From an uncultured delta proteobacterium (lineage in GTDB: Bacteria; Desulfobacterota; Desulfovibrionia; Desulfovibrionales; Desulfovibrionaceae): 64,000 nt of DNA. A program made the position numbers and the translations under genes. The notes beneath the pieces are model-generated. The model was given only the letters and a program-made list of their open reading frames with translations. It was not told the DNA's origin and made no database searches. Location: positions 62,001-126,000 of the forward strand of contig CAIMRY010000019.1 of assembly GCA_903843965.1 (NCBI GenBank). The letters run 5' to 3'. Positions 1 to 14,751 of this stretch are shown piece by piece (positions within the stretch are counted from its first letter, which is position 1; every line of letters starts with the position of its first letter).

Positions 1-11
1 TTTCTCTACAG

Positions 12-66
12 GAATGTACACCCCTTGCACAAGAATGCACAAAATTGAAAATCCGACAACGTGCAC
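12..66. promoter_or_regulatory. Possible operator: phased TG(T/C)ACA repeats upstream of the aromatic operon
   Basis: TGTACA (15-20), TGCACA (26-31) and TGCACA (36-41) are spaced 11 and 10 bases apart, about one helical turn, and a palindromic GTGCAC follows at 61-66. All lie just upstream of the TTGACA -35 box at 85-90. Helically phased half-sites next to a promoter are typical of a repressor or activator array. The regulator is unknown; a TrpR- or TyrR-like protein would be a guess. Confidence 0.35.
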
Positions 67-84
67 GGATTCCCAAAAAAACCG

Positions 85-113
85 TTGACAGACGCCACGG
101 GCGCGGGTAGATG
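85..113 (+). promoter_or_regulatory. Sigma-70-type promoter of the aromatic operon
   Basis: A perfect -35 box TTGACA (85-90) is separated by 17 bases from TAGATG (108-113), a 4/6 match to the -10 consensus. Transcription would start near 119-121, that is at or just before the leader-peptide ATG at 122. No better promoter was seen between here and the first structural gene. Confidence 0.65.
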
Positions 114-121
114 CTCACGTC

Positions 122-211
122 ATGAACCTCTTCGCCGCCAACAATACCTCCTTTTGCCAGTATTGGTATTATTGGTTTAGCTGCGCTTGCGGCCGGGGAG
201 AGGTTTGTTGA
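122..211 (+). CDS. Aromatic-amino-acid leader peptide (29 aa)
   Basis: This short reading frame runs ATG to TGA and encodes 29 residues. Residues 11-19 read FCQYWYYWF, seven aromatics out of nine (Phe11, Tyr14, Trp15, Tyr16, Tyr17, Trp18, Phe19), with a further Phe4. Such clustering of the amino acids made by the downstream operon is the hallmark of a ribosome-stalling attenuator leader. No clear Shine-Dalgarno is present and the predicted transcription start nearly coincides with the ATG, so it may be translated as a leaderless mRNA. It is followed by an antiterminator/terminator pair, which supports the role strongly. Confidence 0.8.
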   Translation: MNLFAANNTSFCQYWYYWFSCACGRGEVC

Positions 212-251
212 CGACCAGACGTTAACCAAAGCCTCTTCAGGAAGGGCCGCA
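188..251 (+). promoter_or_regulatory. Antiterminator helix of the operon-leader attenuator
   Basis: TGCGGCC (188-194), within the end of the leader reading frame, is perfectly complementary to GGCCGCA (245-251), the 5' arm of the terminator. The helix can extend: AGAGG (199-203) pairs with CCTCT (232-236), and TTTG (204-207) with CAAA (227-230). A ribosome that stalls in the Tyr/Trp codons (161-178) leaves 191 onward free, so this helix can form. A ribosome that reaches the stop at 209-211 covers it and allows the terminator. Confidence 0.7.
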
Positions 252-280
252 GGCGAAAGCCGGCGGCCCTTCTTTAGTTT
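241..280 (+). terminator. Attenuator terminator before the aromatic operon
   Basis: GAAGGGCCGC (241-250) pairs with GCGGCCCTTC (263-272). Inside that, GGC (252-254) pairs with GCC (259-261) around a GAAA tetraloop, leaving one A/G mismatch. A T-rich stretch TTTAGTTT follows. The hairpin lies between the leader peptide and the first gene, so it acts as an attenuator and not as the end of an upstream gene. Confidence 0.75.
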
Positions 281-346
281 CAACCGCCGGAAGACAGCCT
301 GAAAGCCGCCCAACGAGGCGCAACAGCGACCACGCAGGAGGACGCC

Positions 347-1150
347 ATGCATCTTGGAAAAGCCATCCGGCTCGAACGCATCTTCAACCGCAACACCAAA
401 CGCACCATCATCGTGCCCATGGACCACGGCACCACCGTCGGCCCCATCCCGGGCATCGTGGACATGCGCGAGGCCGTGGGCGCGGTGGTCGAGGGCGGGG
501 CCAACGCCGTCTTGATGCACAAGGGCCTGGTCCGCTGCGGCCACCGCACCCAGGGCAAAGACATCGGGCTTATCGTCCACCTCTCCGCCAGCACCACCCT
601 CTCCCCCTTCCCCAACGCCAAGACCCTCGTGGGAACTGTTGAAGACGCCATCCGACTCGGCGCGGACGCGGTGAGCGTGCACGTGAACCTGGGCGACGAG
701 AGCGAGGCCAAGATGCTCACCGACTTCGGCCAGGTGACGAGCATCGCCCAGAGCTGGGGCATCCCTGTGCTGGCCATGGTCTACGCGCGCGGGCCCAAGG
801 TCAAAAGCGAGTTCGACGCCGAGATCGTGGCCCACTGCGCCCGCGTGGGCGTGGAGCTGGGCGCGGACGTGGTCAAGGTGCCCTACACCGGCGACATCGA
901 CTCCTTCGGCCACGTGGTCGACTCCTGCTGCGTGCCCGTGGTCATCGCCGGCGGGCCCAAGCTCGACAGCACCAAGGCCTTTTTGCAGATGGTGCACGAC
1001 TCCATCGCCGCCGGGGGCTCGGGCCTGTCGGTTGGGCGCAACATCTTCCAGCACAAGAACCCGGCCCTGCTCTGCCAGGCCCTGTCCAAGGTCGTGCACG
1101 AGGACGAGAACGTCGACGTGGTCATGGAAATGCTCAAAGGCAAGGAATAG
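347..1150 (+). CDS. 2-amino-3,7-dideoxy-D-threo-hept-6-ulosonate (ADH) synthase, aroA'-type class I aldolase
   Basis: This enzyme catalyses the first step of the alternative 3-dehydroquinate route. It condenses an aspartate-semialdehyde partner with a 6-deoxy-ketohexose phosphate and bypasses DAHP synthase. The 267-residue protein is a Schiff-base TIM barrel. Asp26 (in MDHG), Tyr146 and Lys177 (in VVKVPYTG) are each offset by seven from the catalytic Asp33, Tyr153 and Lys184 known for Methanocaldococcus MJ0400, which supports ADH synthase over ordinary fructose-bisphosphate aldolase. The start has a clear AGGAGG. The partner 3-dehydroquinate synthase II follows within a few bases, confirming the pathway. 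Confidence 0.88.
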
Positions 1151-1161
1151 GCGCTTTGATC

Positions 1162-2148
1162 ATGAAACAGATCATCTTCAAGGCCATTCCCTTCCAGAAA
1201 AAGCTGGTCACCCTGGCCCTGGAGTCCGGGGTGGACGCCATCCTGACGGAAAGCGCCAGGGCCGACGACGTGCGCGCGCTGGGCCGCGTCACCGTGCTGA
1301 CCGAGGCCGAGCTGCCCACGCTGCCCCTTGACTCCAAGGCCGACGAGGAGGCCGCCACGGCCAAACTTCTGGCCGGGCAGCAGGTTTCCCTGGCCAAGGG
1401 CTGGGAGATCATCCCGGTGGAGAACATCCTGGCCCAGGCCACGGGCCTGGGGCTGGAGTGCGAGTCCCTTGACCGGGCCGTGCTGGCCGCAGGCATCCTG
1501 GAGCGCGGGGCGGACATGATCGTGGTTTTGCCCGAGGCTGCGGGCGACCTGAAAGCCATCGTGGCCGAGCTCAAGCTCTCCCAGGGCACGGTCGACCTCT
1601 CCCGCGCCGTGGTCACGGCCATTGAGCCTGCTGGCCTGGGCCACCGCGTCTGCGTGGACACCATCTCCATGCTGCGGCGCGGCCAGGGCATGCTGGTGGG
1701 CAACTCCAGCGCCTTCACCTTCCTGGTCCACGCCGAAACGGAATCCAACCCCTATGTGGCGGCGCGGCCCTTCCGCGTCAATGCCGGGGCCGTGCACGCC
1801 TACGCGGTGCTGCCCGGAGACAAGACCTGCTACCTGGAGGAGCTCTCCGCCGGGCGCGAGGTGCTCATCGTCGGGGCCGACGGCAAGACCAGCCTGGCCA
1901 CTGTGGGCCGGGTCAAGGTCGAGGTGCGGCCCATGCTCAAGATCACCGCCGTTGTCACTGCGCCTGATGGGTGCAGGGTCTCCGGCCAGGTGTTTCTGCA
2001 AAACGCGGAGACCATCCGCGTCACCGGGGCCGACGGCGCGCCCATCAGCGTGGTCAACCTGAAGCCCGGCGACGAGATCCTGTGCCGCACGGATGTGGCG
2101 GGCCGGCACTTCGGCATGCGCATCTGCGAGGACATCAAGGAGGGATGA
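1162..2148 (+). CDS. 3-dehydroquinate synthase II (aroB'-type)
   Basis: This NAD-dependent enzyme converts the ADH synthase product to 3-dehydroquinate and feeds the shikimate pathway. The protein is about 328 residues, the family length, and ends in the family beta domain (DGAPISVVNLKPGDEIL). I chose ATG 1162. An in-frame TTG at 1156 lies 9 bases after an AAGGA and is a real alternative that adds two residues. It sits between ADH synthase and pheA in one transcription unit. Its stop overlaps an upstream ATG of pheA. Confidence 0.88.
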   Translation: MKQIIFKAIPFQKKLVTLALESGVDAILTESARADDVRALGRVTVLTEAELPTLPLDSKADEEAATAKLLAGQQVSLAKGWEIIPVENILAQATGLGLECESLDRAVLAAGILERGADMIVVLPEAAGDLKAIVAELKLSQGTVDLSRAVVTAIEPAGLGHRVCVDTISMLRRGQGMLVGNSSAFTFLVHAETESNPYVAARPFRVNAGAVHAYAVLPGDKTCYLEELSAGREVLIVGADGKTSLATVGRVKVEVRPMLKITAVVTAPDGCRVSGQVFLQNAETIRVTGADGAPISVVNLKPGDEILCRTDVAGRHFGMRICEDIKEG

Positions 2149-2150
2149 GC

Positions 2151-3293
2151 ATGGACGACAGCAACAAAACCGACGACACGAAGGGCATGGCCGAGGCCAA
2201 GCTCGACCTGGCGGCGCTGCGCTCCGAGATCGACGCCCTGGACGACGGCATCGTGGACCTCTTGAACCGCCGCGCGGCCATCAGCATCGGCGTGGGCCGC
2301 ACCAAGGAGGGCTCGCCGGACACGGTGTTCAAGCCCTTCCGCGAGAAGGAGGTCATGGAGCGCCTGGCCAAACAAAACCCCGGCCCCCTGCCGGAGAGCC
2401 ACCTCCAGGCCATCTACCGGGAGATCATGAGCTCCTCGCGCCGGTTGCAGCGCCCGGAGCGCGTGGTCTACCTGGGGCCGGAGGGCACCTTCAGCTACTT
2501 CGCCGGGCTGGAGTACATGGGCCGCAGCGCGGAGCTGACGCCCAAGGCCAACTTCGAGGAGATCTTCCGCGCCGTGGCCGACGGCGAGGCCGAACTCGGC
2601 GTCATCCCGCTGGAGAACTCGCTCCAGGGCACGGTTGGCCAAGTGGTGGACCTGTTCATGCTCTTCCCGGTGCACATCCACGCCGAACTCTACAGCCGCA
2701 TCACGCACTTCCTCATGGGCAAGGCCGACTTCCCGGCGGACGTGCGCGAGATACACTCCCACCCGCAGCCGCTGGACCAGTGCTCCGGCTGGTTGCGGAA
2801 CAACATGCCCGGCCGCGTCCTGGTGCCGGAGAGCAGCACGGCGGCGGCGGCGGAAATGGCGGCCAAGAGCGGCCCCGGCGTGGCCACCGTAGGGCACATC
2901 CGCCTGGCCGACCGCTACGGGCTGAACATCCTGGCCGCGCACATCGAGGATTTGCCCGACAACTGGACGCGCTTTCTGGTCATCGGCCCCCGGCCCGGCA
3001 CAGAGGGCGCGCGCGACAAGACCTCCATCCTGTTCACCGTGCCGGACAAGCCCGGCGCCCTGGCCGAGGTGCTCGACTCCTTCGCGGGCCGGGCCATCAA
3101 CCTGACCAAGCTGGAGAGCCGCCCCATGCGCGGCGAAAAGTGGAAGTACGTGTTCTTCGCCGACCTGGAGTGCGACCTCTCGCGCATGGAGTACGACAGC
3201 TTCCTGGCCAGCTTGCGCGAGCGCTGCCACACCCTGCGCATCCTGGGCTCGTACCCCACGGGCCCGCACCTGGACGCCGGGGGCCGCTCATGA
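2151..3293 (+). CDS. pheA: Bifunctional chorismate mutase / prephenate dehydratase
   Basis: This enzyme makes phenylpyruvate for Phe from chorismate. Three domains are visible in about 380 residues. An AroQ chorismate mutase (about 15-95) contains LRSEIDALDDGIVDLLNRR. Prephenate dehydratase (about 100-275) has YLGPEGTFS and the NWTRF motif. A C-terminal ACT regulatory domain contains DKPGAL and ESRP, the Phe-binding signature, so feedback inhibition by Phe is expected. ATG 2151 is 7 bases after AGGAGG. The ATG at 2145 touches that ribosome site and is less likely. The stop overlaps the aroA start (ATGA). Confidence 0.93.
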   Translation: MDDSNKTDDTKGMAEAKLDLAALRSEIDALDDGIVDLLNRRAAISIGVGRTKEGSPDTVFKPFREKEVMERLAKQNPGPLPESHLQAIYREIMSSSRRLQRPERVVYLGPEGTFSYFAGLEYMGRSAELTPKANFEEIFRAVADGEAELGVIPLENSLQGTVGQVVDLFMLFPVHIHAELYSRITHFLMGKADFPADVREIHSHPQPLDQCSGWLRNNMPGRVLVPESSTAAAAEMAAKSGPGVATVGHIRLADRYGLNILAAHIEDLPDNWTRFLVIGPRPGTEGARDKTSILFTVPDKPGALAEVLDSFAGRAINLTKLESRPMRGEKWKYVFFADLECDLSRMEYDSFLASLRERCHTLRILGSYPTGPHLDAGGRS

Positions 3294-4714
3294 GCGCCAC
3301 CTCCACCCAGATCCTGATCCAGGCCCCGGCCTCCAAGTCCATGTCGCACCGGGCGCTCATCGGCGCGGCCCTGGCGCCGGGCGAAAGCCGCCTGTCCGGC
3401 GTGCTGGAAAGCCAGGACACACAGCGCACCATGGCCTGCCTCACGGCCTGCGGCGCGCGCTTCGCGCGTCTTGGCGGGGGCGAGTATCTGGTCCAGGGGA
3501 TGCGCCACGGCCCCATAAGCGGCGAAGCCGACGTGGCCGACCTGAACGTTGGCGAGTCCGGCACCACCTGCCGCCTTTTGGCCGGGGTCGTGGCCGCCGG
3601 GCGCGGGCGCTTCCGCCTCCACGGCGAGGGCCGCATGCACGACCGGCCCCTGGGCGAGCCCGCGCGGGCGCTGGCGTCGCAGGGCGTGGTCTTTTGCTGG
3701 GAGGGCAAACCCGGCTACCCGCCGGTGACCATCGAGCCGCCGACGCAGAATGAGGGCCAGAATGAGGGCCAGAGCGGCGGCCTGCCCGGCGGCGAAATCG
3801 ACGTGCGCCTGGAGGAGAGCAGCCAGTACCTGTCCGGCATCCTTTTGGCCGCGCCCCTGGCCAAAAGCGCCCTGACCATCAGCATCAGCGGCGAAAAGGC
3901 CGTGAGCTGGCCGTACGTCTCGCTCACCCTCCAGACCATGCGCGACTTCGGCGTGCCCGTGGTGGTGGAGGTGCTGACCGGAGGCCGGTTCACGCCCGTG
4001 GAGCAGGACAGCGTGACCCGCGCCGAACCCGGCATGCTGCGCTTCATCATCCAGCCCGGCACGTACCAGGCCCGCAGCCTGTGCGTGGAGGGCGACTGGA
4101 GCAACGCCTCCTACTTTCTGGCCGCCGGGGCCGTGGGCAAACGCCCGGTCACCGTGCGCGGCCTCACCCGCGCGTCCCTCCAGGGCGACCGCGCCATCCT
4201 GGACATCCTGGCGGCCATGGGCGCGCGCATCGCCTGGGCCAGCGGGTCCCATGACCATGCGGGCGGCGACCAGGGCGGAGACGAAATCACCGTGCTCGCG
4301 CCCCAGGGCGGCCAGCTCCACGGCGTGGATGTGGACATGGGCGCCTGCCCGGACCTGGTGCCCACCGTGGCCGTGGCCGCCTGCTTCGCGCATGGGCCCA
4401 CCACCATCCGCAACGTGGCCCACCTGCGCATCAAGGAATGCGACCGCCTGGAGACCCTGGCCACCGAGATCGCCAAAACCGGCTGCTTTGCTTCCATGAC
4501 CGCAGACACCCTGACCATCACCCCCGCGCCCCTGCCCGCTGGCAGGCGCATCGAGTTCTGCTCGCAGGGCGACCACCGCATGGTCATGGGTCCGGCCCTG
4601 TTCGCCCTGGGCTGCGTAAACGCGCAGTTCGACAACCCCGGCTGCGTGGCCAAGAGCTTTCCGGAATTCTGGGAGCGCTGGGCCGACGTGCTCGCGGGCG
4701 CGCAGCAGGCCTAG
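3290..4714 (+). CDS. aroA: 3-phosphoshikimate 1-carboxyvinyltransferase (EPSP synthase)
   Basis: This enzyme transfers the enolpyruvyl group of PEP to shikimate 3-phosphate. The 474-residue protein shows the substrate-binding PASKSMSHR near the start, the GESGTTCR loop equivalent to the NAGTAxR motif, HDRPLGEP, and KECDRLE plus DHRMVMG near the C-terminus. It starts in a 4-base ATGA overlap with pheA. A short 12-bp in-frame repeat (3746-3769, residues QNEG twice) inserts a flexible loop not usual for the family. Confidence 0.93.
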   Translation: MSATSTQILIQAPASKSMSHRALIGAALAPGESRLSGVLESQDTQRTMACLTACGARFARLGGGEYLVQGMRHGPISGEADVADLNVGESGTTCRLLAGVVAAGRGRFRLHGEGRMHDRPLGEPARALASQGVVFCWEGKPGYPPVTIEPPTQNEGQNEGQSGGLPGGEIDVRLEESSQYLSGILLAAPLAKSALTISISGEKAVSWPYVSLTLQTMRDFGVPVVVEVLTGGRFTPVEQDSVTRAEPGMLRFIIQPGTYQARSLCVEGDWSNASYFLAAGAVGKRPVTVRGLTRASLQGDRAILDILAAMGARIAWASGSHDHAGGDQGGDEITVLAPQGGQLHGVDVDMGACPDLVPTVAVAACFAHGPTTIRNVAHLRIKECDRLETLATEIAKTGCFASMTADTLTITPAPLPAGRRIEFCSQGDHRMVMGPALFALGCVNAQFDNPGCVAKSFPEFWERWADVLAGAQQA

Positions 4715-4722
4715 GAGCGGGC

Positions 4723-5538
4723 ATGCAGGCAGGCCAGGACACGGCGCGGGACAGCGCGCGGGACATTCAGCGGGTCGCCATCGTGGGCGCGCGCGGGCAG
4801 ATGGGGGCGCTTTTCGTGCGCGCCCTGCACAAGGCCGGGCTCAGCGTGGCCAGCCTGGACCGGCCCTACGACCCGGACGGCACAGGCGCGGCCATCAAGG
4901 CGGCGCTCGCCGGGGCCGGGCTGGTGGTGCTGTCCGTGCCGGTGACGGCCATGCGCGCCGTGGCCGGGGCCGTGGCCCCGTTCATGGACGCCGGGGCCAT
5001 CCTCTGCGATGTCTGCTCCGTGAAGGTGAACCCCGTGTGCGCAATGCTGGAGGCCTACCCTGGGCCGGTGGTGGGCACGCATCCCCTGTTCGGGCCGGTG
5101 ATTCCCGAGGGCTTTGAGCCGCGCGTGGCCGTGACCCCCGGTCGAGAAACCGCTGAATGGGACGGCGCCGCCGCCGGGGCCGTTTCGCGCCTGTTCGCCC
5201 GGGCCGGGTTTTCGCCCTTTTCCAGCACGGCGGAGGAGCACGACAAGGCCATGTCCGTGGTGCAGGGGCTCAATTTCATCACCACCGTGGCCTACCTGGC
5301 CGCCGCGCGCCAAACGCCGGGCATCGAGAAGTTCCTCACCCCGTCCTTTGGCCGCAGGCTGGAGGCCGCGCGCAAGATGCTGACAAAGGACCGCGAGCTG
5401 TTCCAGATCATCAGTGAGGACAACCCCTTCATGCAGGAGACCGTGCGCCAGTTCACGGCCTACCTGGACATCGCCGCCGGGGGCGATCTCGACCTGCTCT
5501 CCGCCAGGGCCTCCTGGTGGTGGCGCGACACGGCATAG
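4723..5538 (+). CDS. tyrA: Prephenate dehydrogenase; 3' end doubles as a likely Trp-sensing leader
   Basis: This enzyme oxidatively decarboxylates prephenate to 4-hydroxyphenylpyruvate for Tyr. It has 271 residues, with a Rossmann motif GARGQMG near residue 20 and the family sequences GTHPLFGP and EEHDKAMS. The start is ATG 4723 after AGGAG. The last residues are ASWWWRDTA, with three consecutive TGG codons (5515-5523) five codons before the stop. The stop codon at 5536-5538 is immediately followed by mutually exclusive hairpins before trpE. The E. coli enzyme also has an aromatic HWF near its end, so one Trp may be structural; three in a row is unusual. Confidence 0.9.
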   Translation: MQAGQDTARDSARDIQRVAIVGARGQMGALFVRALHKAGLSVASLDRPYDPDGTGAAIKAALAGAGLVVLSVPVTAMRAVAGAVAPFMDAGAILCDVCSVKVNPVCAMLEAYPGPVVGTHPLFGPVIPEGFEPRVAVTPGRETAEWDGAAAGAVSRLFARAGFSPFSSTAEEHDKAMSVVQGLNFITTVAYLAAARQTPGIEKFLTPSFGRRLEAARKMLTKDRELFQIISEDNPFMQETVRQFTAYLDIAAGGDLDLLSARASWWWRDTA

Positions 5539-5591
5539 GGACGCGGCTTTCGCCCTTGGGCGAAGATGTGACGAAGTGTGTGCCGCGTCCC
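5538..5591 (+). promoter_or_regulatory. Antiterminator helix between tyrA and trpE
   Basis: GGGACGCGGC (5538-5547), starting on the last base of the tyrA stop codon, is perfectly complementary to GCCGCGTCCC (5582-5591). A smaller hairpin TTCGCCC/GGGCGAA (5549-5564) nests between. The downstream arm is also the 5' arm of the terminator, so the two structures exclude each other. A ribosome stalled on the Trp codons 5515-5523 would leave 5538-5547 free. A ribosome at the tyrA stop would cover it. Confidence 0.65.
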
Positions 5592-5616
5592 GCCCTGGGT
5601 CGCGGCATTGTATTTT
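5581..5616 (+). terminator. Intergenic attenuator terminator ahead of trpE
   Basis: TGCCGCG (5581-5587) pairs with CGCGGCA (5601-5607). After one T-T mismatch, CCC (5589-5591) pairs with GGG (5597-5599) across a five-base loop. TTGTATTTT follows at 5608-5616. This is a convincing Rho-independent terminator inside the operon, between tyrA and trpE. It makes sense only as a conditional stop. Confidence 0.65.
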
Positions 5617-5651
5617 GCAACGGCAGCTTTTTTCACGAACCGGAGGACCCC

Positions 5652-7059
<1,408 letters not shown>

Positions 7060-7079
<20 letters not shown>

Positions 7080-7650
7080 CTTCGACTCCTTCACCTTCAA
7101 TCTGGTGCAGGCCTTCCAGCAGCTCGGGGCCGATCCCGTGGTCTTTCGCAACGACCGCCCGGAACTGCTGGACCCGGAATTTGTGGCGGGCCTGACCCGT
7201 GTGTGCCTCTCGCCCGGACCCAGCAGGCCGGAGAACGCGGGCAATTGCCTGAAGTTCCTGGCCCTGCTGGAGCAGACCGGCATGAATGTGCCCACCCTCG
7301 GCGTATGCCTGGGGCACCAGACCCTGGGCCACTTCGCCGGGGCCAGCGTGGTCCGGGCCGAGCGCATCATGCACGGCAAGACAAGCCCCGTGCTGCACGA
7401 CGGCACGGACGTGTTCGCCGGGTTGGAGAGCCCGTTTGAGGTCTGCCGCTACCATTCGCTGCTGGTGCTGGCCGAGGAAGCGCCGGACAAGCTGCGCGTG
7501 ACCGCCAAGACCGCCGAGGGCGAGGTCATGGGCATGTGCTACACCGACCGCCCCTGGAGCGGGGTGCAGTTCCACCCCGAGTCCATCCTGACCCCGGACG
7601 GGCCGAAACTTCTGGCCAACTTCCTCAACCACAAAACGCAGGCCGCCTAG
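7060..7650 (+). CDS. trpG: Anthranilate synthase component II (glutamine amidotransferase)
   Basis: This subunit supplies ammonia from glutamine to TrpE. The protein has 196 residues. It begins with the family signature LLIDNFDSFT and carries the nucleophile Cys83 in GVCLGHQ and the His/Glu pair in QFHPES near the C-terminus. It starts inside the trpE 3' end after an AAGGGGG site, so the two subunits are probably translationally coupled. It is not fused to trpD, unlike in enteric bacteria. Confidence 0.95.
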
Positions 7651-7664
7651 GCCGGGAGGATGAA

Positions 7665-8714
7665 ATGAGCAACTCCATGCGCGACATCCTGGACACCCTG
7701 GGCAACAGCCTGGACCTCTCGGCCGAGCAGGCGGCCTTCGCCTTCCGCGAGCTCTTCGAGGGAGACTTAAGCCAGGCCCAGGCCGGGGCCTTGCTCATGG
7801 GCCTGCGGGCCAAGGGCGAGACCCCGCTGGAGCTGGCCGCCGCCGCCCGCGCGGGCCTGGAGCGTGCCCACCTGGTCACCAATCTGCCGACAGACCGGCC
7901 CATCCTGGACATCGTGGGCACCGGCGGCGATCTCTCCAACAGCTTCAACTGCTCCACGGCGGTGAGCCTGTACCTGGCGGCCCTGGGCCACCGGGTGGTC
8001 AAGCACGGCAACCGCGCCGTGTCGTCCTCCAGCGGCAGCGCCGACGCGCTGGAGGGCCTGGGCATCCGGCTCGACACCGGCCCGGACGAGGTGGCGGCGG
8101 AGCTGGCGCGCCAGGGCTTCGTGTTCCTCTTCGCCCCGCACTACCACCCGTCCTTTGCGCACATCGCGCCCGTGCGCCGGGAGCTGGGCGTGCGCACCCT
8201 GTTCAACCTCATGGGCCCGCTCTTGAACCCGGCCCGGCCCTCGCACCAGCTGCTCGGCGTGGGGCAGGCGCGCGCGCTGGGGCTCATGGCCGAGACCCTG
8301 GCCCTCACCGCGCCGGGCCTCACCGCCTTTGTCATCCACGGGACGGTCGGCTTTGGCGATGGCGGCGACGACAAGGCCGGGGGCTTTGACGAACTGACGC
8401 CCTTTGGCCAGAACATGGGCTTCGTGCTGGACCGGGGCGCGGTCACCCCGCTGGACCTGGACGCGCGCGCGTACGGCTTCCCCAGCCACGACCCGGACGA
8501 GGTGCGCGTGGCCGACAAACCCGCCGCGCTCAAAGCCATCCAGGACGTGCTCACCGGCAAGGCCAATGCCGCCATGCAGGACATGACCGCGCTCAACCTG
8601 GGCGCGGCCCTGCACTTGGCCACGGGCAAACCCCTGGCCGAGTGCATGCGCGAGGCCAGGCAGGCCGTGGCCGACGGCGCGGCGCGGAGGTTCGTCCATG
8701 TCGCCGGGGAGTAA
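7665..8714 (+). CDS. trpD: Anthranilate phosphoribosyltransferase
   Basis: This enzyme transfers phosphoribose from PRPP to anthranilate. The 349-residue protein shows the PRPP-binding VGTGGD and NCSTAVSLYLA near residues 80-105, the KHGNRAVSS loop and the NLMGPLLNPA motif. ATG 7665 follows GGGAGGA. The 3' end overlaps trpC by 17 bases. Confidence 0.94.
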   Translation: MSNSMRDILDTLGNSLDLSAEQAAFAFRELFEGDLSQAQAGALLMGLRAKGETPLELAAAARAGLERAHLVTNLPTDRPILDIVGTGGDLSNSFNCSTAVSLYLAALGHRVVKHGNRAVSSSSGSADALEGLGIRLDTGPDEVAAELARQGFVFLFAPHYHPSFAHIAPVRRELGVRTLFNLMGPLLNPARPSHQLLGVGQARALGLMAETLALTAPGLTAFVIHGTVGFGDGGDDKAGGFDELTPFGQNMGFVLDRGAVTPLDLDARAYGFPSHDPDEVRVADKPAALKAIQDVLTGKANAAMQDMTALNLGAALHLATGKPLAECMREARQAVADGAARRFVHVAGE

Positions 8715-9522
8715 GGCCAGCATGCTGGAGCGCTTCCGGGACGCGCAAGCCGGGTCCATCGCCCTGTTGCGCAGGCAGGCCGAGGAAGGCCAACTGCCCA
8801 CGCCGTGGAACTACTCGGAGATCAACGCGCGGCCGGGCTTCAGCCAGGCTTTGCGCCGGGCCGGGTCTCCCGCTGTCATCGCCGAGTACAAGCGCGCCTC
8901 GCCCTCGCGCGGGGTCATCAACCTGGACCGGACCCCTGCGGACGTGGCCCGCATTTATGCCGACAACGGGGCCGCCTGCTTCTCGGTGCTGACCGAGCGC
9001 GCCCACTTCCAGGGCGACCTGCGCTTCTTGGCCGACATGGCCTTTGCGGGCAGGCCCATGCTGCGCAAGGACTTCCTGCTGGACCCGCTGCAGGTGGTGG
9101 AGACCGCAGCCACGCCTGCCTCGGCCCTGCTCGTCATCATACGCCTGTTCGCGGGCGCGGCCCAGGTGAGGGAGATGCTCGACGCCTGCCGCCAGTACGG
9201 GCTGGAGGCCGTGTGCGAGGTCTTTGACGAGGCCGACCTGGACCTCGCGCGCGAGGCCGGGGCTTCAATCATCCAGGTCAACAACCGCGACCTGGACCGG
9301 CTGACCACGGACCTTGGCGTCTCGCGCCGCCTGGCCCCGCACAAGCAGGACAAGGAGCTGTGGATCAGCGCCTCGGGCCTGTCCGAGCCGGGGCAGCTGG
9401 CCGAGATGGCCGACCGGGGCTACGACGCGGTGCTCATCGGCACCTCGCTCATGTCCCAGGCCGACCCCGGCGCGGCATTGAAGAAACTGACCGACGTGGC
9501 CAAAACAAGGAAGGCGAAATGA
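8698..9522 (+). CDS. trpC: Indole-3-glycerol-phosphate synthase
   Basis: This enzyme closes the indole ring from carboxyphenylamino-deoxyribulose phosphate. It is a monofunctional 274-residue TIM barrel. Visible elements are EYKRASPSRG (the catalytic Lys), LTERAHFQGD, RKDFLLD and QVNNRDL. ATG 8698 lies inside trpD about 8 bases after GGAGG. ATG 8722 is a weaker alternative. It ends in an ATGA overlap with trpF. Confidence 0.94.
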   Translation: MSPGSKASMLERFRDAQAGSIALLRRQAEEGQLPTPWNYSEINARPGFSQALRRAGSPAVIAEYKRASPSRGVINLDRTPADVARIYADNGAACFSVLTERAHFQGDLRFLADMAFAGRPMLRKDFLLDPLQVVETAATPASALLVIIRLFAGAAQVREMLDACRQYGLEAVCEVFDEADLDLAREAGASIIQVNNRDLDRLTTDLGVSRRLAPHKQDKELWISASGLSEPGQLAEMADRGYDAVLIGTSLMSQADPGAALKKLTDVAKTRKAK

Positions 9523-10274
9523 CCATTGAGACGGGCGGACTGCTGGTCAAGGTCTGCGGCATGACCCGGGAGGAGGACGCGCTGCTCTGCGCCGAGCTGG
9601 GGGCCGACCTGCTGGGCTTCATCTTCCACCCGGGCAGCCCGCGCAACACCACGCCGGAATTCCCGGCGGGCCTCGACTTCCCGCGCATGGGCCTGCCGGG
9701 CGTGCGCAAGGTCGGCCTGTTCGTGGACCAGAAGCCCATGGAGGCCCTGAGCCTCATGGCCGCCGGGCGGCTGGACCTGGCCCAGCTCCATGGCGGCCAG
9801 ACCGAGTCCTTTTGCCAGGTCCTGGCGGAGCGCATGGGGCCGGGCCGCATCATCAAGGTCTTCTGGCCTGAAAAAGCCGCCAGCCTCGAAGCCTTCCAGG
9901 CCGAGCTGGACCGCTACGCGCCATACTGCGGGATGATGCTCGTGGACGCGGGCGCGGGCGGCGGCGGGCATGGCCGGGCCATCGGGTCTGAAGGAGGCTC
10001 CGGCGACAACGGCAAGGCCGCAGAGATCCTGGCGAACGCGAAATTCCCGCGGCCATGGCTCTTGGCCGGGGGGCTGAATCCGGCGAACCTCCCCGGCCTG
10101 ATTTCCCGGTTCCGCTCCCCCGGCTCCCCAGCTCAAGGCCAGGGGCTGGTCGGCGTGGACCTCAACTCCGGCGTGGAAAAAACGCCCGGCATCAAGGACG
10201 AAACACTGCTGCGCGCGGCCTTTGCCGCACTCAAGACGGTCCGCGCGGCCCAAACCCAAGGGGTGACCCCGTGA
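9519..10274 (+). CDS. trpF: Phosphoribosylanthranilate isomerase
   Basis: This enzyme catalyses the Amadori rearrangement between the TrpD and TrpC steps. At 251 residues it is longer than the usual roughly 200-220. A Gly-rich insertion (about residues 147-165) and an Ala/Pro-rich loop account for the excess. KVCGMTREEDA (catalytic Cys), GFIFHPGSPR, LLAGGLNPAN and GVDLNSGVE are present. It starts in an ATGA overlap with trpC and ends overlapping the trpB GTG. Confidence 0.92.
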   Translation: MTIETGGLLVKVCGMTREEDALLCAELGADLLGFIFHPGSPRNTTPEFPAGLDFPRMGLPGVRKVGLFVDQKPMEALSLMAAGRLDLAQLHGGQTESFCQVLAERMGPGRIIKVFWPEKAASLEAFQAELDRYAPYCGMMLVDAGAGGGGHGRAIGSEGGSGDNGKAAEILANAKFPRPWLLAGGLNPANLPGLISRFRSPGSPAQGQGLVGVDLNSGVEKTPGIKDETLLRAAFAALKTVRAAQTQGVTP

Positions 10275-11449
10275 AGAAAGGCTATTTCGGCATATTCGGC
10301 GGGCAATACGTGCCCGAGCTGCTCATGCCCCCGCTGCTGGAGTTGGAGGAGGCCATGGAGCGCATCCTGCCCTCCAAGGAGTTTCAGGACGAGCTCCAAA
10401 GCGAGCTGACCCACTTTGTGGGCCGACCCACGGCGCTCACCTTCTGCCCGAACCTTTCGGCCAAGCTGGGCGTGAAGCTGTGGCTCAAGCGCGAGGACCT
10501 GGCCCACGGCGGCGCGCACAAGGTCAACAACACCATCGGCCAGGCCCTCTTGACCAAGAAGCTCGGCAAGACGCGGCTTTTGGCCGAGACCGGCGCAGGC
10601 CAGCACGGCGTGGCCACGGCACTGGCCGCCGCGCGCTTTGGGCTTGAGTGCGTCATCTACATGGGCGCGCTCGACGTCGAGCGCCAGAGCCTCAACGTGC
10701 GCCGCATGAAGCTCTTCGGGGCCACGGTGGTGCCCGTGGAGTCCGGCACCAAGACCCTGAAGGACGCCATCAACGCAGCCCTGCGCGCCTGGATTGTCGA
10801 GCAGCAGACCACCCACTACTGCTTCGGCACCGCCGCCGGGCCGCACCCCTTCCCGCTCTTGGTGCGGGAGCTGCAGTCCGTCATCAGCCGGGAGGCGCGC
10901 GGCCAGATGCTCGACCAGGCGGGCTGCCTGCCGGACTACGTTGTGGCCTGCGTGGGCGGCGGCTCAAACGCCATCGGGTCCTTCCACGAGTTCGTGCCCG
11001 ACGCTCGCGTCAAGCTCATCGGCGTGGAGGCCGCAGGCAGCGGCAAGCCCGGAGACTACCACTCCGCGCCCCTGTCCAAGCAGGGCTCGCCCGGCGTTCT
11101 GCACGGCATGCACACCCAGCTCATCCAGACGCCCGAGGGCCAGATACTGCCCTCCCACTCCATCGCGCCCGGGCTGGACTATCCCGGCGTGGGGCCGGAG
11201 CATGCGGCCTACCAGGCCAGCGGCCGGGCGCAGTACGTGTCCGTCACCGACGACGTGGCGCTGGACGCCTTTGTGACCCTGAGCCGCAACGAGGGCATCA
11301 TGCCCGCGCTGGAGAGCTCCCACGCCCTGGGCTGGGCCTTGGCCAACGCGCACGGCATGAAGCCGGGCAGCCACGTGGTGGTCTGCCTCTCGGGCCGGGG
11401 CGACAAGGACCTGGACATCGTCAACGACTACCTGGCCAATAAGGCGTAG
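10271..11449 (+). CDS. trpB: Tryptophan synthase beta chain
   Basis: This PLP enzyme condenses indole with serine. It has 392 residues. The PLP lysine lies in GGAHKVNN, the substrate loop is ETGAGQHGVA and the phosphate cradle is GGGSNAIG. It belongs to the ordinary trpB1 class, paired with trpA. The start is GTG 10271, about 8 bases after AAGGGG and overlapping the trpF stop. Confidence 0.95.
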   Translation: MKKGYFGIFGGQYVPELLMPPLLELEEAMERILPSKEFQDELQSELTHFVGRPTALTFCPNLSAKLGVKLWLKREDLAHGGAHKVNNTIGQALLTKKLGKTRLLAETGAGQHGVATALAAARFGLECVIYMGALDVERQSLNVRRMKLFGATVVPVESGTKTLKDAINAALRAWIVEQQTTHYCFGTAAGPHPFPLLVRELQSVISREARGQMLDQAGCLPDYVVACVGGGSNAIGSFHEFVPDARVKLIGVEAAGSGKPGDYHSAPLSKQGSPGVLHGMHTQLIQTPEGQILPSHSIAPGLDYPGVGPEHAAYQASGRAQYVSVTDDVALDAFVTLSRNEGIMPALESSHALGWALANAHGMKPGSHVVVCLSGRGDKDLDIVNDYLANKA

Positions 11450-11458
11450 GGGGCCAAC

Positions 11459-12238
11459 GTGAGCAACGACATCCTGACCAAACGCATCAATGCCGCCAGG
11501 GCCAAGGGCCGCCTGGGCCTGATTCCCTTCCTGCCCGCAGGCTACCCGGACAAATCCCGCTTCTGGGACGAAATCGACCAGCTGGACGCCGCCGGGGCCG
11601 ACATCATCGAGATCGGCATGCCCTTCTCCGACCCCGTGGCCGACGGGCCCGTGGTCGAGCACGCCTCGCTCAAGTGCCTGGACGCGGGCGTGAACCTGGC
11701 CTGGATTCTCCGCGAGCTGGCCGTGCGCAAGGGCCGCTTCAAGGCCGGCCTGGTGCTCATGGGCTACCTGAACCCGGTGCTGCAGTACGGTCTGGAGCGC
11801 TTCGCGCGCGATGCGTCGTCCGCCGGGGTGCACGGCATCATCCTGGCCGACGTGCCGCATGAGGAGTCCGGGCCAGTCCGCGCGGCCTTCGACCCCGCAG
11901 GCCTGGTGCTGATCCCTCTCGTGGGCCTGAACACCACGCCGGAGCGCATGGCGCTCTACGCCAAAGAGGGCAAAGGCTTCGTGTACTTCGTGTCCGTGCT
12001 GGGCACCACGGGCGTGCAGGCGGGCTTTGACTCAGGCCTGCCGGAGACCATCCGCACGGGCCTGGCCGCAGCCAAGGCCGCCTTTGACATCCCGGTGGCG
12101 CTCGGCTTCGGCCTCAAGCACCCGGACCAGCTCAAGGCCCTCGACGGACTTGTGGACGCCGCCGTGTTCGGCAGCGCGCTCATCCGGCACATCGACAACG
12201 GCGGGGACAGCACGGGGTTCATGCAGGTATGGAAATAG
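11459..12238 (+). CDS. trpA: Tryptophan synthase alpha chain
   Basis: This subunit cleaves indole-3-glycerol phosphate and passes indole to TrpB. The 259-residue TIM barrel has the catalytic Glu in IEIGMPFSDPVADGP and the catalytic Asp region ILADVP. The start is GTG 11459 after AGGGGG. It is the last gene of the operon; two large hairpins follow at once. Confidence 0.94.
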   Translation: MSNDILTKRINAARAKGRLGLIPFLPAGYPDKSRFWDEIDQLDAAGADIIEIGMPFSDPVADGPVVEHASLKCLDAGVNLAWILRELAVRKGRFKAGLVLMGYLNPVLQYGLERFARDASSAGVHGIILADVPHEESGPVRAAFDPAGLVLIPLVGLNTTPERMALYAKEGKGFVYFVSVLGTTGVQAGFDSGLPETIRTGLAAAKAAFDIPVALGFGLKHPDQLKALDGLVDAAVFGSALIRHIDNGGDSTGFMQVWK

Positions 12239-12248
12239 GGGAGTTTCT

Positions 12249-12536
12249 CTGGGGGGCCTGAGGCCCCCCAGACCCCCCCATTGCGCCGAAAGGGCTGTTT
12301 CAGGAGGAACCTGAGACAGCCCTTTCGGCTTTGGGTGAACCACGGGAGATCGCCTTTCTCTTTGCCGCTTCGCCTACCCTCTCAAAGGGGGCCAACCGTG
12401 CGCGGAATATTCGGGGGAACCCCGGATATTCCGCGCACATTGCCGACGCCCGCCCAGCCAAGGCAACGGCCTTTGCCGCCCTGCCCCGCCCCCGTTGGGG
12501 GGTCCGGGGGCCTCAGGCCCCAGGCCGCCGGAGGCA
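12249..12536. repeat. Palindromic intergenic element, copy 1
   Basis: This fills the space between convergent trpA and the MFS gene. From left to right it holds a GGCC-TGA-GGCC hairpin (12249-12271), a 20-bp terminator stem (12285-12329), a conserved GGGCCAACC block near 12388, a palindrome (12400-12440) and an inverted GGGGCCTCAGGCCCC/CCGCCGGAGGCA end (12497-12536). The outer ends are inverted repeats of one another. The same block order is found at 21519-21969 and, in reverse, at 24980-25260. Confidence 0.7.
12285..12332 (+). terminator. Terminator of the trp operon (probably bidirectional)
   Basis: A 20-base arm (12285-12304) pairs with 12310-12329 across an AGGAA loop, with a single G-U wobble, and is followed by TTT. 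It is part of the repeated intergenic element. It is suited to stopping both the trp operon and the convergent MFS gene. Confidence 0.75.
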
Positions 12537-12544
12537 ATTACTCC

Positions 12545-13903
12545 CTACCGCCTGCGCGTGACCCACAAGATCGCGCAGCCGCCCAGCACCATGATGGCGG
12601 CGATGGACAGAAAGCCCATGACGTGGCTGCCCGTGGCGTCGCGCACGTAGCCCACCAGCGTCGGCCCGACGAACCCGCCGGAATTGCCCACGGAGTTGAT
12701 GAGCGCCACCCCGCCCGCCGTCGCCGCGCCGGACAAAAAGCCCGTGGGGATGGTCCAGAACGGCCCGAGCATGCCCCACAGCCCGATGGTGGCGAGGGTG
12801 AAACAGCCCAGGCTCCACCACGGCCCCGACAGACCGATCAGGGCCGCGCCCCCGGGCCAGAGCGCCAGCACGAATCCCGCCGCGCTGACGAACAGCGGCC
12901 CGGCCGTGTGCCAGCGCCGCTCGCCGGTGCGGTCGGAGTGCCGTCCGATCAGCACCATGCCCACGACCCCGCCCAGGTACGGAATGGCCGAGAGCAGCCC
13001 CACGCGCTCCGGCCCGGCCCCAGGCCCCAAAATCTCGCCGATGAGCGTGGGCATCCACATGACCAGCCCGTACATGCCCACGCACAGGCTGAAATAGCCG
13101 AGGCTGAGCAGCCAGACCCGCCCGTCGCGCGCAAGGGTGCCCAGCACGGTCCACAGGCCGTGGGCCTCGCTGTGCGCCCCCGCGTCGGCGGCATGTTCGA
13201 CCGCCAGTTCGCCTGCCAGCGCCTCCCGTTCGGCAGGGTTGAGCCAGGGGGCGTGCTCCGGGCCGTCCGCCAGATACCGCAGCACGGAGAAGCCCAAAAG
13301 CACCGCCGGAACGCCCTCCAGCAGGAACAGCCAGCGCCAGCCGGACAGGCCCATTGCGCCGTGCATCTCCAGCAGCAGGCCGGAGAGCGGCCCGCCCACG
13401 ATGCCCGCCACCGGGGTTGCGGCCATGAACAGGGCCACGGCCCGGGCGCGGAGCTTTGCTGGGTACCACAGGGTCAGGTAGTAGATGATGCCGGGCAGAA
13501 AGCCCGCCTCGGCCACGCCGAGCAGGAAGCGCAGCACATGAAACGACCAGTCCGTGTGCACGAGCGCCATGGCGCAGGCGCAGATCCCCCAGGTGACCAT
13601 GATCCGGGCGATCCACAGCCGCGCGCCCACCCGGCGCAGGATGAGGTTGCTCGGCACCTCGCACAGCACGTAGCCCGCGAAGAACATGCCCGCGCCCAGG
13701 CCGAACACGGAGCTGGAGAACCCAAGCTCGCGGCTTAAGCTCGGCGCGGCGAAGCTCACGTTGACGCGGTCCAGGTAGGCCACCACGTAGAGCAGAAACA
13801 GGTAGGGCAAGAGGCGCAAATCGACCTTGCGGTACAGGGCGACGAGGGCGGCGGAGGAAGGCGCAGCGTTGGGGCTGCCGGAAGGCGTGTCGGTTGCGGT
13901 CAT
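12545..13903 (-). CDS. MFS transporter, anion:cation symporter (ACS) family
   Basis: This is a proton-coupled uptake permease for an organic anion (sugar acid, phthalate or similar); the substrate cannot be told. The 452-residue protein has about twelve hydrophobic segments. It carries the ACS signature YLDRVNVSFAAPSL in the first helix region and the RxGARLW loop. A central hydrophilic loop lies around residues 195-245. The start is ATG 13903 with only a weak ribosome site. It is convergent with trpA and has no operon partner. A degraded piece of a similar gene lies just upstream. Confidence 0.85.
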   Translation of the reverse strand: MTATDTPSGSPNAAPSSAALVALYRKVDLRLLPYLFLLYVVAYLDRVNVSFAAPSLSRELGFSSSVFGLGAGMFFAGYVLCEVPSNLILRRVGARLWIARIMVTWGICACAMALVHTDWSFHVLRFLLGVAEAGFLPGIIYYLTLWYPAKLRARAVALFMAATPVAGIVGGPLSGLLLEMHGAMGLSGWRWLFLLEGVPAVLLGFSVLRYLADGPEHAPWLNPAEREALAGELAVEHAADAGAHSEAHGLWTVLGTLARDGRVWLLSLGYFSLCVGMYGLVMWMPTLIGEILGPGAGPERVGLLSAIPYLGGVVGMVLIGRHSDRTGERRWHTAGPLFVSAAGFVLALWPGGAALIGLSGPWWSLGCFTLATIGLWGMLGPFWTIPTGFLSGAATAGGVALINSVGNSGGFVGPTLVGYVRDATGSHVMGFLSIAAIMVLGGCAILWVTRRR

Positions 13904-14035
13904 GGGGCTGGTGTAGCCCAGGCGGGGGGCAAAGAAAAGAGACGACCCGCCATTCCCACGCCCGGCATCGGGCTCTCCGGGCAGGCATCGCCGCGCCCGG
14001 CGCTTCCTCGGCCCAAAAGCGGGCGGGCCGCTGCG

Positions 14036-14112
14036 GCGTTCCCACTGCCACGCCGGGCAGAAAACCCGTGGGAATGGTCCAGAACGGCCAGCACAGCCAG
14101 GCCCCATGGCCG
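14036..14112 (-). pseudogene. Remnant of a second ACS-family MFS transporter
   Basis: Read on the minus strand, this stretch gives WPFWTIPTGFLPGVA. That closely matches GPFWTIPTGFLSGAA of the adjacent intact transporter (coded near 12715-12785), and the DNA match is obvious by eye. No open frame continues on either side. The rest of 13904-14313 holds no gene I can recognise. Confidence 0.6.
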
Positions 14113-14313
14113 GTTGTCTTTGCCCCACTCCCCGAGCACGCTTGAACCCTGGCGCTGTCCGATCCTGCCCCGAGCCTTAAGCACGGCGCCCGCCAACGCC
14201 TAGATCAAATCCTGCACGGGCATGTTGTCGGCCCTGCCCGCTCCCCTCCTTTGATCATGCGCTTGGCCGCAGGCCTTGATCCAAACAGCAAAGCCCACGG
14301 CACGGAGCCGAAC

Positions 14314-14751
14314 CTACTTTCCGGAGCGCCGCAGCATTCCCTTGTCCAGCGACTTGCCGTCCACGCTCTGCGCTTCAAAGGTCAAACTATTGCCGTCGCT
14401 GCCAAGCTGCAAAAGCACCTTGCCGGATTCCATTTTCGTGCAGAACCCGCCGTTCGCCATCGAGATTCCGTAATTTCTGCTCTTGGCATCGATGTCGACA
14501 GGAGCACCAAGGGTCACTGCGCAATTTCTCGGAGATCCGTATCGCAGCGAACTCGTTTTTGGCTGAAGAGTAAGAGCCACCGTGGAACCGGAAGTCGTCG
14601 CCCCGTTCCAAACCCCGTCAAATGTTGCCGGACTGGCTGCAGAGGCGACGGTGCTGCTTGCGTGAACAAAGATGCACAGTGACAAAGTAAAAAGAAGCGC
14701 CAGGAACAACGACGTGTTGACGGATTTCTTGCCGAACAGGCTCTTTCTCAT
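14314..14751 (-). CDS. Small exported protein of unknown function
   Basis: This 145-residue protein has a long signal peptide: basic MRKSLFGKK, a hydrophobic core to about residue 30, and likely cleavage at the ASA of residues 36-38. The mature part of about 107 residues has two Cys that could form a disulfide, and a pattern of short beta strands (FDGVWNGATTSGS, VALTLQP) like small lipocalin-fold or DUF proteins. The start is ATG 14751 after AAGGAGAG. I do not recognise the family; the periplasm or outside is its likely place. Confidence 0.65.
   Translation of the reverse strand: MRKSLFGKKSVNTSLFLALLFTLSLCIFVHASSTVASAASPATFDGVWNGATTSGSTVALTLQPKTSSLRYGSPRNCAVTLGAPVDIDAKSRNYGISMANGGFCTKMESGKVLLQLGSDGNSLTFEAQSVDGKSLDKGMLRRSGK

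Follow-up and report, generated by a model that had tools for sequence, protein, structure and literature searches.

Comparative sequence evidence for a probable tryptophan-sensing transcription attenuator at the tyrA-trpE junction in the order of Desulfovibrio, with the complete tyrA gene as its proposed leader

Classical leader peptides exist in amino-acid operons such as pheA and ilv; in the intercistronic attenuator of Escherichia coli rph-pyrE a full structural gene acts as the translated leader for the next gene, UTP being sensed via the speed of RNA polymerase without cognate codons or amino-acid specificity. The leader of E. coli trpL is a 14-aa peptide at the start of the operon. Higher ribosome occupancy at its stop codon is reported to accompany more termination (PMC5373646). 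In Chlamydia trachomatis, WWW-dependent attenuation of YtgCR feeds into trpRBA (PMC7755916): a WWW motif in a full-length protein gene senses Trp by ribosome stalling and affects trp expression, the stall leading to Rho-independent termination of ytgR itself and acting in trans, via a repressor, on another operon. Amino-acid attenuators in PMC3766115 are restricted to Rfam motifs. No report of an attenuator at a tyrA-trpE junction was found in open-access full text (subscription journals and regulon databases lay outside the search), and an earlier report remains possible; similarly, a search of open-access full text found no report of a trp attenuator for the order of Desulfovibrio, and PMC545781, which deals with regulation in metal-reducing delta-proteobacteria, makes no mention, in the text searched, of tryptophan, the trp operon, trpE, tyrA or a leader peptide.

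The stretch of DNA analysed here (64 kb, hereafter the window) carries an aromatic cluster on a single strand, in the order 2-amino-3,7-dideoxy-D-threo-hept-6-ulosonate synthase (347-1150), 3-dehydroquinate synthase II, chorismate mutase/prephenate dehydratase, aroA and tyrA, after which come trpE, G, D, C, F, B and A, ending at 12238 (the identities of trpC and trpF rest on NCBIfam matches under cut-off). That the cluster forms one transcript is inferred from spacing and strand. The window tyrA matches Pfam PF02153 with 46.5 bits (cut-off 26.5), NCBIfam prephenate dehydrogenase models match it with scores under their cut-offs, and its product ends in ARASWWWRDTA. The features of the junction and of the operon start are listed in Table 1. 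Like E. coli trpL, the junction has tandem Trp codons just before a stop codon and competing antiterminator and terminator helices before trpE, with the same arm spacing of 14 nt; unlike trpL, its leader ORF is an enzyme gene of 271 aa lying within the operon. With rph-pyrE it shares a full gene as translated leader, the difference being the Trp codons. It resembles YtgCR in the inferred sensing of Trp through WWW in a full-length protein gene, but is proposed to act in cis, through defined competing helices, and with a stall that prevents termination.

Table 1. Features of the tyrA-trpE junction and of the operon start (window coordinates)
Feature	Position	Strand	Basis or remark
5' leader peptide MNLFAANNTSFCQYWYYWFSCACGRGEVC, Phe/Tyr/Trp codon cluster (FCQYWYYWF), proposed first attenuator of the whole operon	122..211	+	
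5'-leader terminator, stem 241-272, -27.4 kcal/mol, T-rich tail	241..281	+	precedes first cluster gene
tyrA (prephenate dehydrogenase, 271 aa), proposed full-length leader ORF	4723..5538	+	translation; Pfam PF02153
Three consecutive Trp codons TGGTGGTGG, in frame in tyrA, proposed sensing codons	5515..5523	+	
tyrA stop codon TAG, proposed site where a non-stalled ribosome covers the antiterminator arm	5536..5538	+	footprint arithmetic
Antiterminator arm GGGACGCGGC, 14 nt past the last Trp codon	5538..5547	+	complementarity, shuffles, covariation
Small hairpin TTTCGCC/GGCGAAG within the antiterminator loop	5548..5565	+	fold
Intrinsic terminator, stem 5581-5587/5601-5607, -19.5 kcal/mol, T-rich tail 5608-5616	5581..5616	+	
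Shared segment GCCGCGTCCC, partner of 5538-5547 (antiterminator) or of the terminator 3' arm	5582..5591	+	
trpE, ATG at 5652, first gene under the proposed internal Trp attenuator	5652..7079	+	

We consider it very probable, in the absence of expression data and of any bench test, that in these sulfate-reducing relatives of Desulfovibrio the junction is a ribosome-mediated, Trp-specific transcription attenuator for which the complete enzyme gene tyrA serves as leader ORF. Under a shortage of charged tRNA-Trp, a ribosome translating tyrA would stall at the WWW codons with its footprint ending just short of the arm at 5538-5547; the free arm would pair with 5582-5591 as the latter is transcribed, the terminator would be blocked and RNA polymerase would go on into trpEGDCFBA. 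With sufficient Trp, the ribosome would reach the tyrA stop and cover the arm, whereupon 5581-5587 would be expected to pair with 5601-5607, the terminator to form and transcription to end after tyrA, with tyrA and the preceding genes still being made. The stalling, the switch itself and the effect on trp expression are inferred.

The preliminary description of this DNA had placed three Trp codons five codons before the tyrA stop and a 10-bp arm directly after it. Both elements are present, but four sense codons (RDTA) separate the triplet from TAG, and the arm already begins with the last base of this stop codon. Its further statement that arm and terminator compete for 5582-5591 is borne out, in that GGGACGCGGC is the exact reverse complement of GCCGCGTCCC over 10 nt and the latter overlaps the 5' part of the terminator, the stem strands of which (TGCCGCG, 5581-5587, and CGCGGCA, 5601-5607) are followed by TTGTATTTT. 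The fold of the window junction has a z of -3.16, with 1 of 200 dinucleotide shuffles equally good, and the duplex between arm and terminator reaches p = 0.010 (300 dinucleotide shuffles). A script scan of the window returned 21 terminator-like hairpins, among which only those of the junction and of the operon 5' leader attain p = 0.005, the lowest value reachable with 200 mononucleotide shuffles (one further hairpin has p = 0.040). The Trp triplet alone proves nothing, because TGGTGGTGG is common in the genome (171 and 139 sites on the two strands in any frame, 310 in total); its frequency was rejected as stand-alone evidence, and it is conservation that constitutes the evidence.

The operon would begin with a further attenuator, of the classical kind and with an aromatic leader peptide, whose terminator likewise has a competing upstream arm (p = 0.005). 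With its Phe, Tyr and Trp codons, the leader at 122-211 resembles classical leader peptides such as those of pheA and ilv; what distinguishes it is that it would be a separate, upstream attenuator of the same operon as the tyrA-trpE junction. A leader with an aromatic cluster (e.g. FYFWYFYF, YFFYFFYFW) and a strong terminator were present in all 20 relatives examined (families f1 to f5), 19 of the leaders (all but that of L313) having been chosen as the most aromatic short upstream ORF, without a shuffle control, and the aromatic 5' leader is present also in genera without the internal attenuator (L319, L320). The genes trpE-A would be under two attenuators, an aromatic one at the operon start and a Trp-only one before trpE. 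The earlier proposal of Trp-only control of trpEGDCFBA would accordingly apply to the internal attenuator only.

For the comparison across the order, tyrA was found in 313 of 348 genomes and 190 loci were examined, consisting of the 30 best, 100 more of the same listing and 60 of 74 further loci, picked for breadth. Sampling was heavier in g37 (Pseudodesulfovibrio, 25 loci), f3g46 (Desulfomicrobium, L219; 15), g1 (14) and g18 (12); g1 is the genus of the window and includes records named Humidesulfovibrio (e.g. L195) and one named Desulfocurvus (L203), and further genera are g12 (Nitratidesulfovibrio, L242), g24 (Halodesulfovibrio, L238), g39 (Solidesulfovibrio, L236) and g23 (Fundidesulfovibrio, L243). 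trpE lies downstream of tyrA in 148 of the 190 loci (147 seen, plus L133, where the contig stops 137 nt past tyrA and which was counted as linked), absence meaning that none was found within the flank looked at (about 1.4-2.6 kb, shorter at contig ends). A terminator-like hairpin (<= -12 kcal/mol, T-rich tail) between the Trp codons and trpE was detected in 115 linked loci, and loci in which the best hairpin was weaker than -12 kcal/mol, or which had none, were classed as being without the attenuator. After removal of two g23 loci (L081, L082; WW only), a terminator with a competing arm remains in 113 of the 148 trpE-linked loci, spanning 25 genera and families f1-f6. At least three consecutive Trp codons are present in 112 of these 113, the exception being L091 (WWF), and five loci from two genera have four, as against at least WWW in 11 of the 35 trpE-linked loci without an attenuator. 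On a FastTree tree of TyrA without its C-terminus, the attenuator label changes at least eight times, with five changes forced by starred branches; the association between WWW and attenuator is represented by two supported pairs among linked loci and five among all loci, such that the independent events are few and the sign test is not significant.

Several genera depart from this arrangement. In g17, g3 and g39 (L098-L109, L183), trpE starts no more than 3 nt from the tyrA stop, there is no terminator and the Trp run is WW only. In g36 (L042-L044), WWW and trpE linkage occur together with a GC-rich inverted repeat 3' of the tyrA stop, no strong intrinsic terminator having been found at these loci. 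TyrA of g18 has WWW in all 12 sampled loci (e.g. L150, L159, L190) with no trpE found in the flank, and here WWW may either serve the protein itself or be left over from an attenuator since lost. It is from such loci that a first rival explanation draws its support, namely that WWW belongs to the protein structure in this branch of TyrA, with a plain partial terminator lowering trp relative to tyrA and the pairing arm being incidental: WWW occurs in 32 of the 77 loci without an attenuator (11 of 35 linked to trpE, 21 of 42 not linked), those of g18 included, and WW is kept in g39, g17 and g3, where trpE begins at the tyrA stop. Part of the Trp conservation may indeed be protein constraint, because WWW persists where the attenuator is absent. 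Against a purely structural role, no run of two or more W was seen in the 12 readable TyrA loci from outside the order, out of 13 looked at (13 of 30 listed loci, the other 17 being inside the order; a small part of the matches in the phylum); the position of the arm, its pairing specificity and its covariation speak against it as well, as set out below.

For each of the 115 loci, the best upstream partner of the terminator 5' arm and loop was determined, and the resulting duplex is better than dinucleotide shuffles at p <= 0.05 in 103 and at p <= 0.01 in 61 of them, 12 missing the 0.05 level. Measured from the last Trp codon, the arm core starts at 11-22 nt (mean 16.8, sd 2.6, or 1.8 for genus medians; n = 113), whereas measured from the stop codon its start lies anywhere between -29 and +8 (sd 9.0, n = 113); the arm register follows the Trp codons rather than the stop codon, with the proviso that the search segment started at the last Trp codon, which sets a floor to the spacing range. 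The arm starts at or just around the stop in g1, g33 and 21 of the 25 g37 loci, and inside the tyrA coding region in most other genera. An arm inside the coding region goes with a TyrA tail of 8-14 residues past the Trp run, and 57 of 69 such loci have Gly-Gly or Gly-Glu in the tail; with an arm at or after the stop, the tail measures 2-6 residues and Gly-Gly occurs in 0 of 44. There are 74 distinct arm cores, which pair on average at -22.4 kcal/mol with their own terminator versus -16.6 kcal/mol with those of foreign genera. Own pairing beats at least 90% of foreign pairings in 83 of 113 loci and at least 75% in 100, while in the remaining 13 more than a quarter of foreign terminators pair no worse than the own one. 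Both the fixed distance from arm to Trp codons, maintained while the stop shifts, and this preference of arms for their own terminators are at odds with an incidental arm.

Covariation was counted in two alignments only: A2, of 35 rows (34 distinct) from g1 and g37, comprising the 35 of the 39 attenuator loci there whose arm lies at the stop; and A3, with all seven g24 loci. Alignments A1, A4 (14 of 15 family f5 loci) and A5 were made and not counted, and f3g46 and f4g50 were left unaligned. In A2, 98.0% of the antiterminator cells are paired and both sides have changed in four of nine pairs (30 cells), as compared with a mean of 11.5 such cells in shuffles, none of 500 of which reach 30; pairing drops to 33-51% when the helix is slid. 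The A2 terminator has 95.7% of its cells paired and both-side changes in three of nine pairs (22 cells); 55 of 500 shuffles reach the three changed pairs and none reach 22 cells. Columns 36/91/107 read C/G/C in g1 and U/A/U in g37 in most rows, that is to say, all three strands change together, and the same is seen at columns 37/90/108 in one genome (L019). The terminator pairs 91/107 and 90/108 are each broken in 4 of the 34 distinct rows, and much of the A2 covariation is one change between two genera, counted over many rows. Sequence resembling the small hairpin at 5548-5565 is seen in most g1 rows of A2, and this hairpin was left out of the counts. In A3, pairs changed on both sides number 1 of 11 in the antiterminator and 3 of 10 in the terminator, the antiterminator being only weakly above shuffles (20 of 500 reach its score).

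The covariation of the antiterminator helix, with these controls, is the last of the points that count against a merely structural WWW, and we regard that explanation as very unlikely. What sequence and comparison establish for this junction is the presence of the Trp codons and of competing helices that covary and keep a set register to those codons. The preliminary description had made an alignment of relatives the test of its proposal, and the test came out in its favour, the Trp triplet and the competing stems being conserved with covariation (25 genera); its central suggestion, that the 3' end of tyrA is a Trp-sensing leader, is supported by the 113 of 148 trpE-linked loci, the covariation and the Trp-codon register, while its function remains an inference. 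A reading of the junction by a trans-acting RNA-binding protein, a tRNA (T-box) or a metabolite riboswitch is barely conceivable: competing terminator and antiterminator helices are generally typical of such systems as well, but the stem sequences vary between genera while the pairing and the Trp-codon distance are kept, and no Rfam family matched at the junction at E <= 1. Specifically, neither the Rfam Trp leader (RF00513) nor the T-box (RF00230) gave a match at E <= 1 in window positions 1-14500. Three Rfam matches in that same interval (a microRNA family twice, a CRISPR repeat once) were dismissed, as they scored under the gathering scores and lay away from the junction.

The Trp-specific attenuator that we favour was further assessed by folding the 113 loci with the ribosome placed at defined positions. 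For a ribosome positioned on the last Trp codon, its 3' edge set at +10 nt, and a transcript extending to the terminator loop, the antiterminator (at least five pairs) is predicted in 113 of 113 loci, irrespective of assumed ribosome edges from +6 to +14; with the ribosome at the stop and the full transcript, the terminator folds in 113 of 113. At equilibrium, however, the terminator is the preferred fold of the full transcript with a stalled ribosome in 93 of 113 loci, which implies that the switch must be kinetic. Equilibrium folding was rejected as proof of a switch for this reason, the E. coli control behaving likewise, and was substituted by the transcript cut at the terminator loop, for which the result at the stop is not clean: at least five pairs with other upstream sequence form in 67 of 113 loci, including 14 of 14 in g1. 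In 112 of 113 loci (exception L018), half or more of the arm core falls within a footprint of -25 to +10 assumed at the stop. The same scripts applied to E. coli trpL returned an arm spacing of 14 nt, 2:3 pairing for a stalled ribosome but not for one at the stop, the terminator at equilibrium, and 1:2 pairing without a ribosome.

When ribosome-free transcripts cut at the loop are folded together with the 60 nt that precede the last Trp codon, forward pairing of the arm (2:3) is predicted in 100 of 113 loci, backward pairing (1:2) in 5 and some other pairing in 8. This differs from E. coli trpL, in that a protector hairpin is usually absent; because of this absence a ribosome-free transcript should read through, and the model predicts antitermination as the default, with termination requiring a ribosome at the tyrA stop. 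Among the criteria for an attenuator, the junction meets those of in-frame tandem Trp codons, mutually exclusive antiterminator and terminator, and suitable stall and stop spacing; it does not meet those of a short dedicated leader peptide without other function, the ORF being tyrA, or of a protector hairpin for termination without translation. These two departures are also what a more general coupling of transcription and translation, in the manner of rph-pyrE, would have in its favour: any slow-down of ribosome or polymerase near the end of tyrA would alter readthrough, Trp not being the specific signal, and with the leader ORF a full gene and a protector predicted so rarely, an absent ribosome should give readthrough too. 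Nevertheless, 112 of 113 loci have a run of three or four Trp codons whose distance from the arm is fixed; this points to Trp as the signal, and we judge unspecific coupling to be highly improbable.

If the Trp-specific attenuator is accepted, a self-limiting branch-point switch may be envisaged, which we put forward only tentatively and think somewhat more apt to be wrong than right. Since only a few codons separate the sensing site from the end of the competing enzyme, one stall would both switch trp on and hold back TyrA: Trp starvation would turn on trpEGDCFBA and impede completion of TyrA via a single stall site, diverting chorismate from tyrosine to tryptophan, with the aromatic leader setting the level of the whole operon and the TyrA C-terminus shaped by the RNA switch (the drop in TyrA is an inference without data). 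Should the attenuator be confirmed, it would mean that a cis-acting amino-acid attenuator needs no dedicated leader peptide and that a mid-operon housekeeping enzyme gene can hold the sensor, and a cell could drop one branch of a multi-branch operon according to the end product of that branch. It would also provide a testable account of Trp control over much of the order of Desulfovibrio, and gives reason to search the 3' ends of ordinary genes for other hidden attenuators, which scans for short leader ORFs would miss.

A separate observation concerns Pseudodesulfovibrio (g37, L323-L345), in which an ORF of 24-25 codons, M-x-x-T-(TGA)-[KR]..EN..KK.KGW.VIP.P, is found just 3' of tyrA; in loci with trpE in view, it is positioned between the attenuator terminator and trpE. 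The in-frame TGA is present in 23 of 23 genomes with a match, and the other 325 genomes of the order gave no match (E <= 0.01). Across 22 copies (21 distinct), 86% of the single-base codon differences after the TGA are synonymous versus 20% expected (pairwise, uncorrected for relatedness), and selB is above its family cut-off in all 23 genomes. This ORF is a candidate for a micro-selenoprotein or other recoding; no typical SECIS hairpin was recognised in eight folds of it. In four g37 loci (L015, L017, L025 and L128), only the start of the small ORF, M-R-D-T-(TGA)-K, is kept and the part after the TGA differs.
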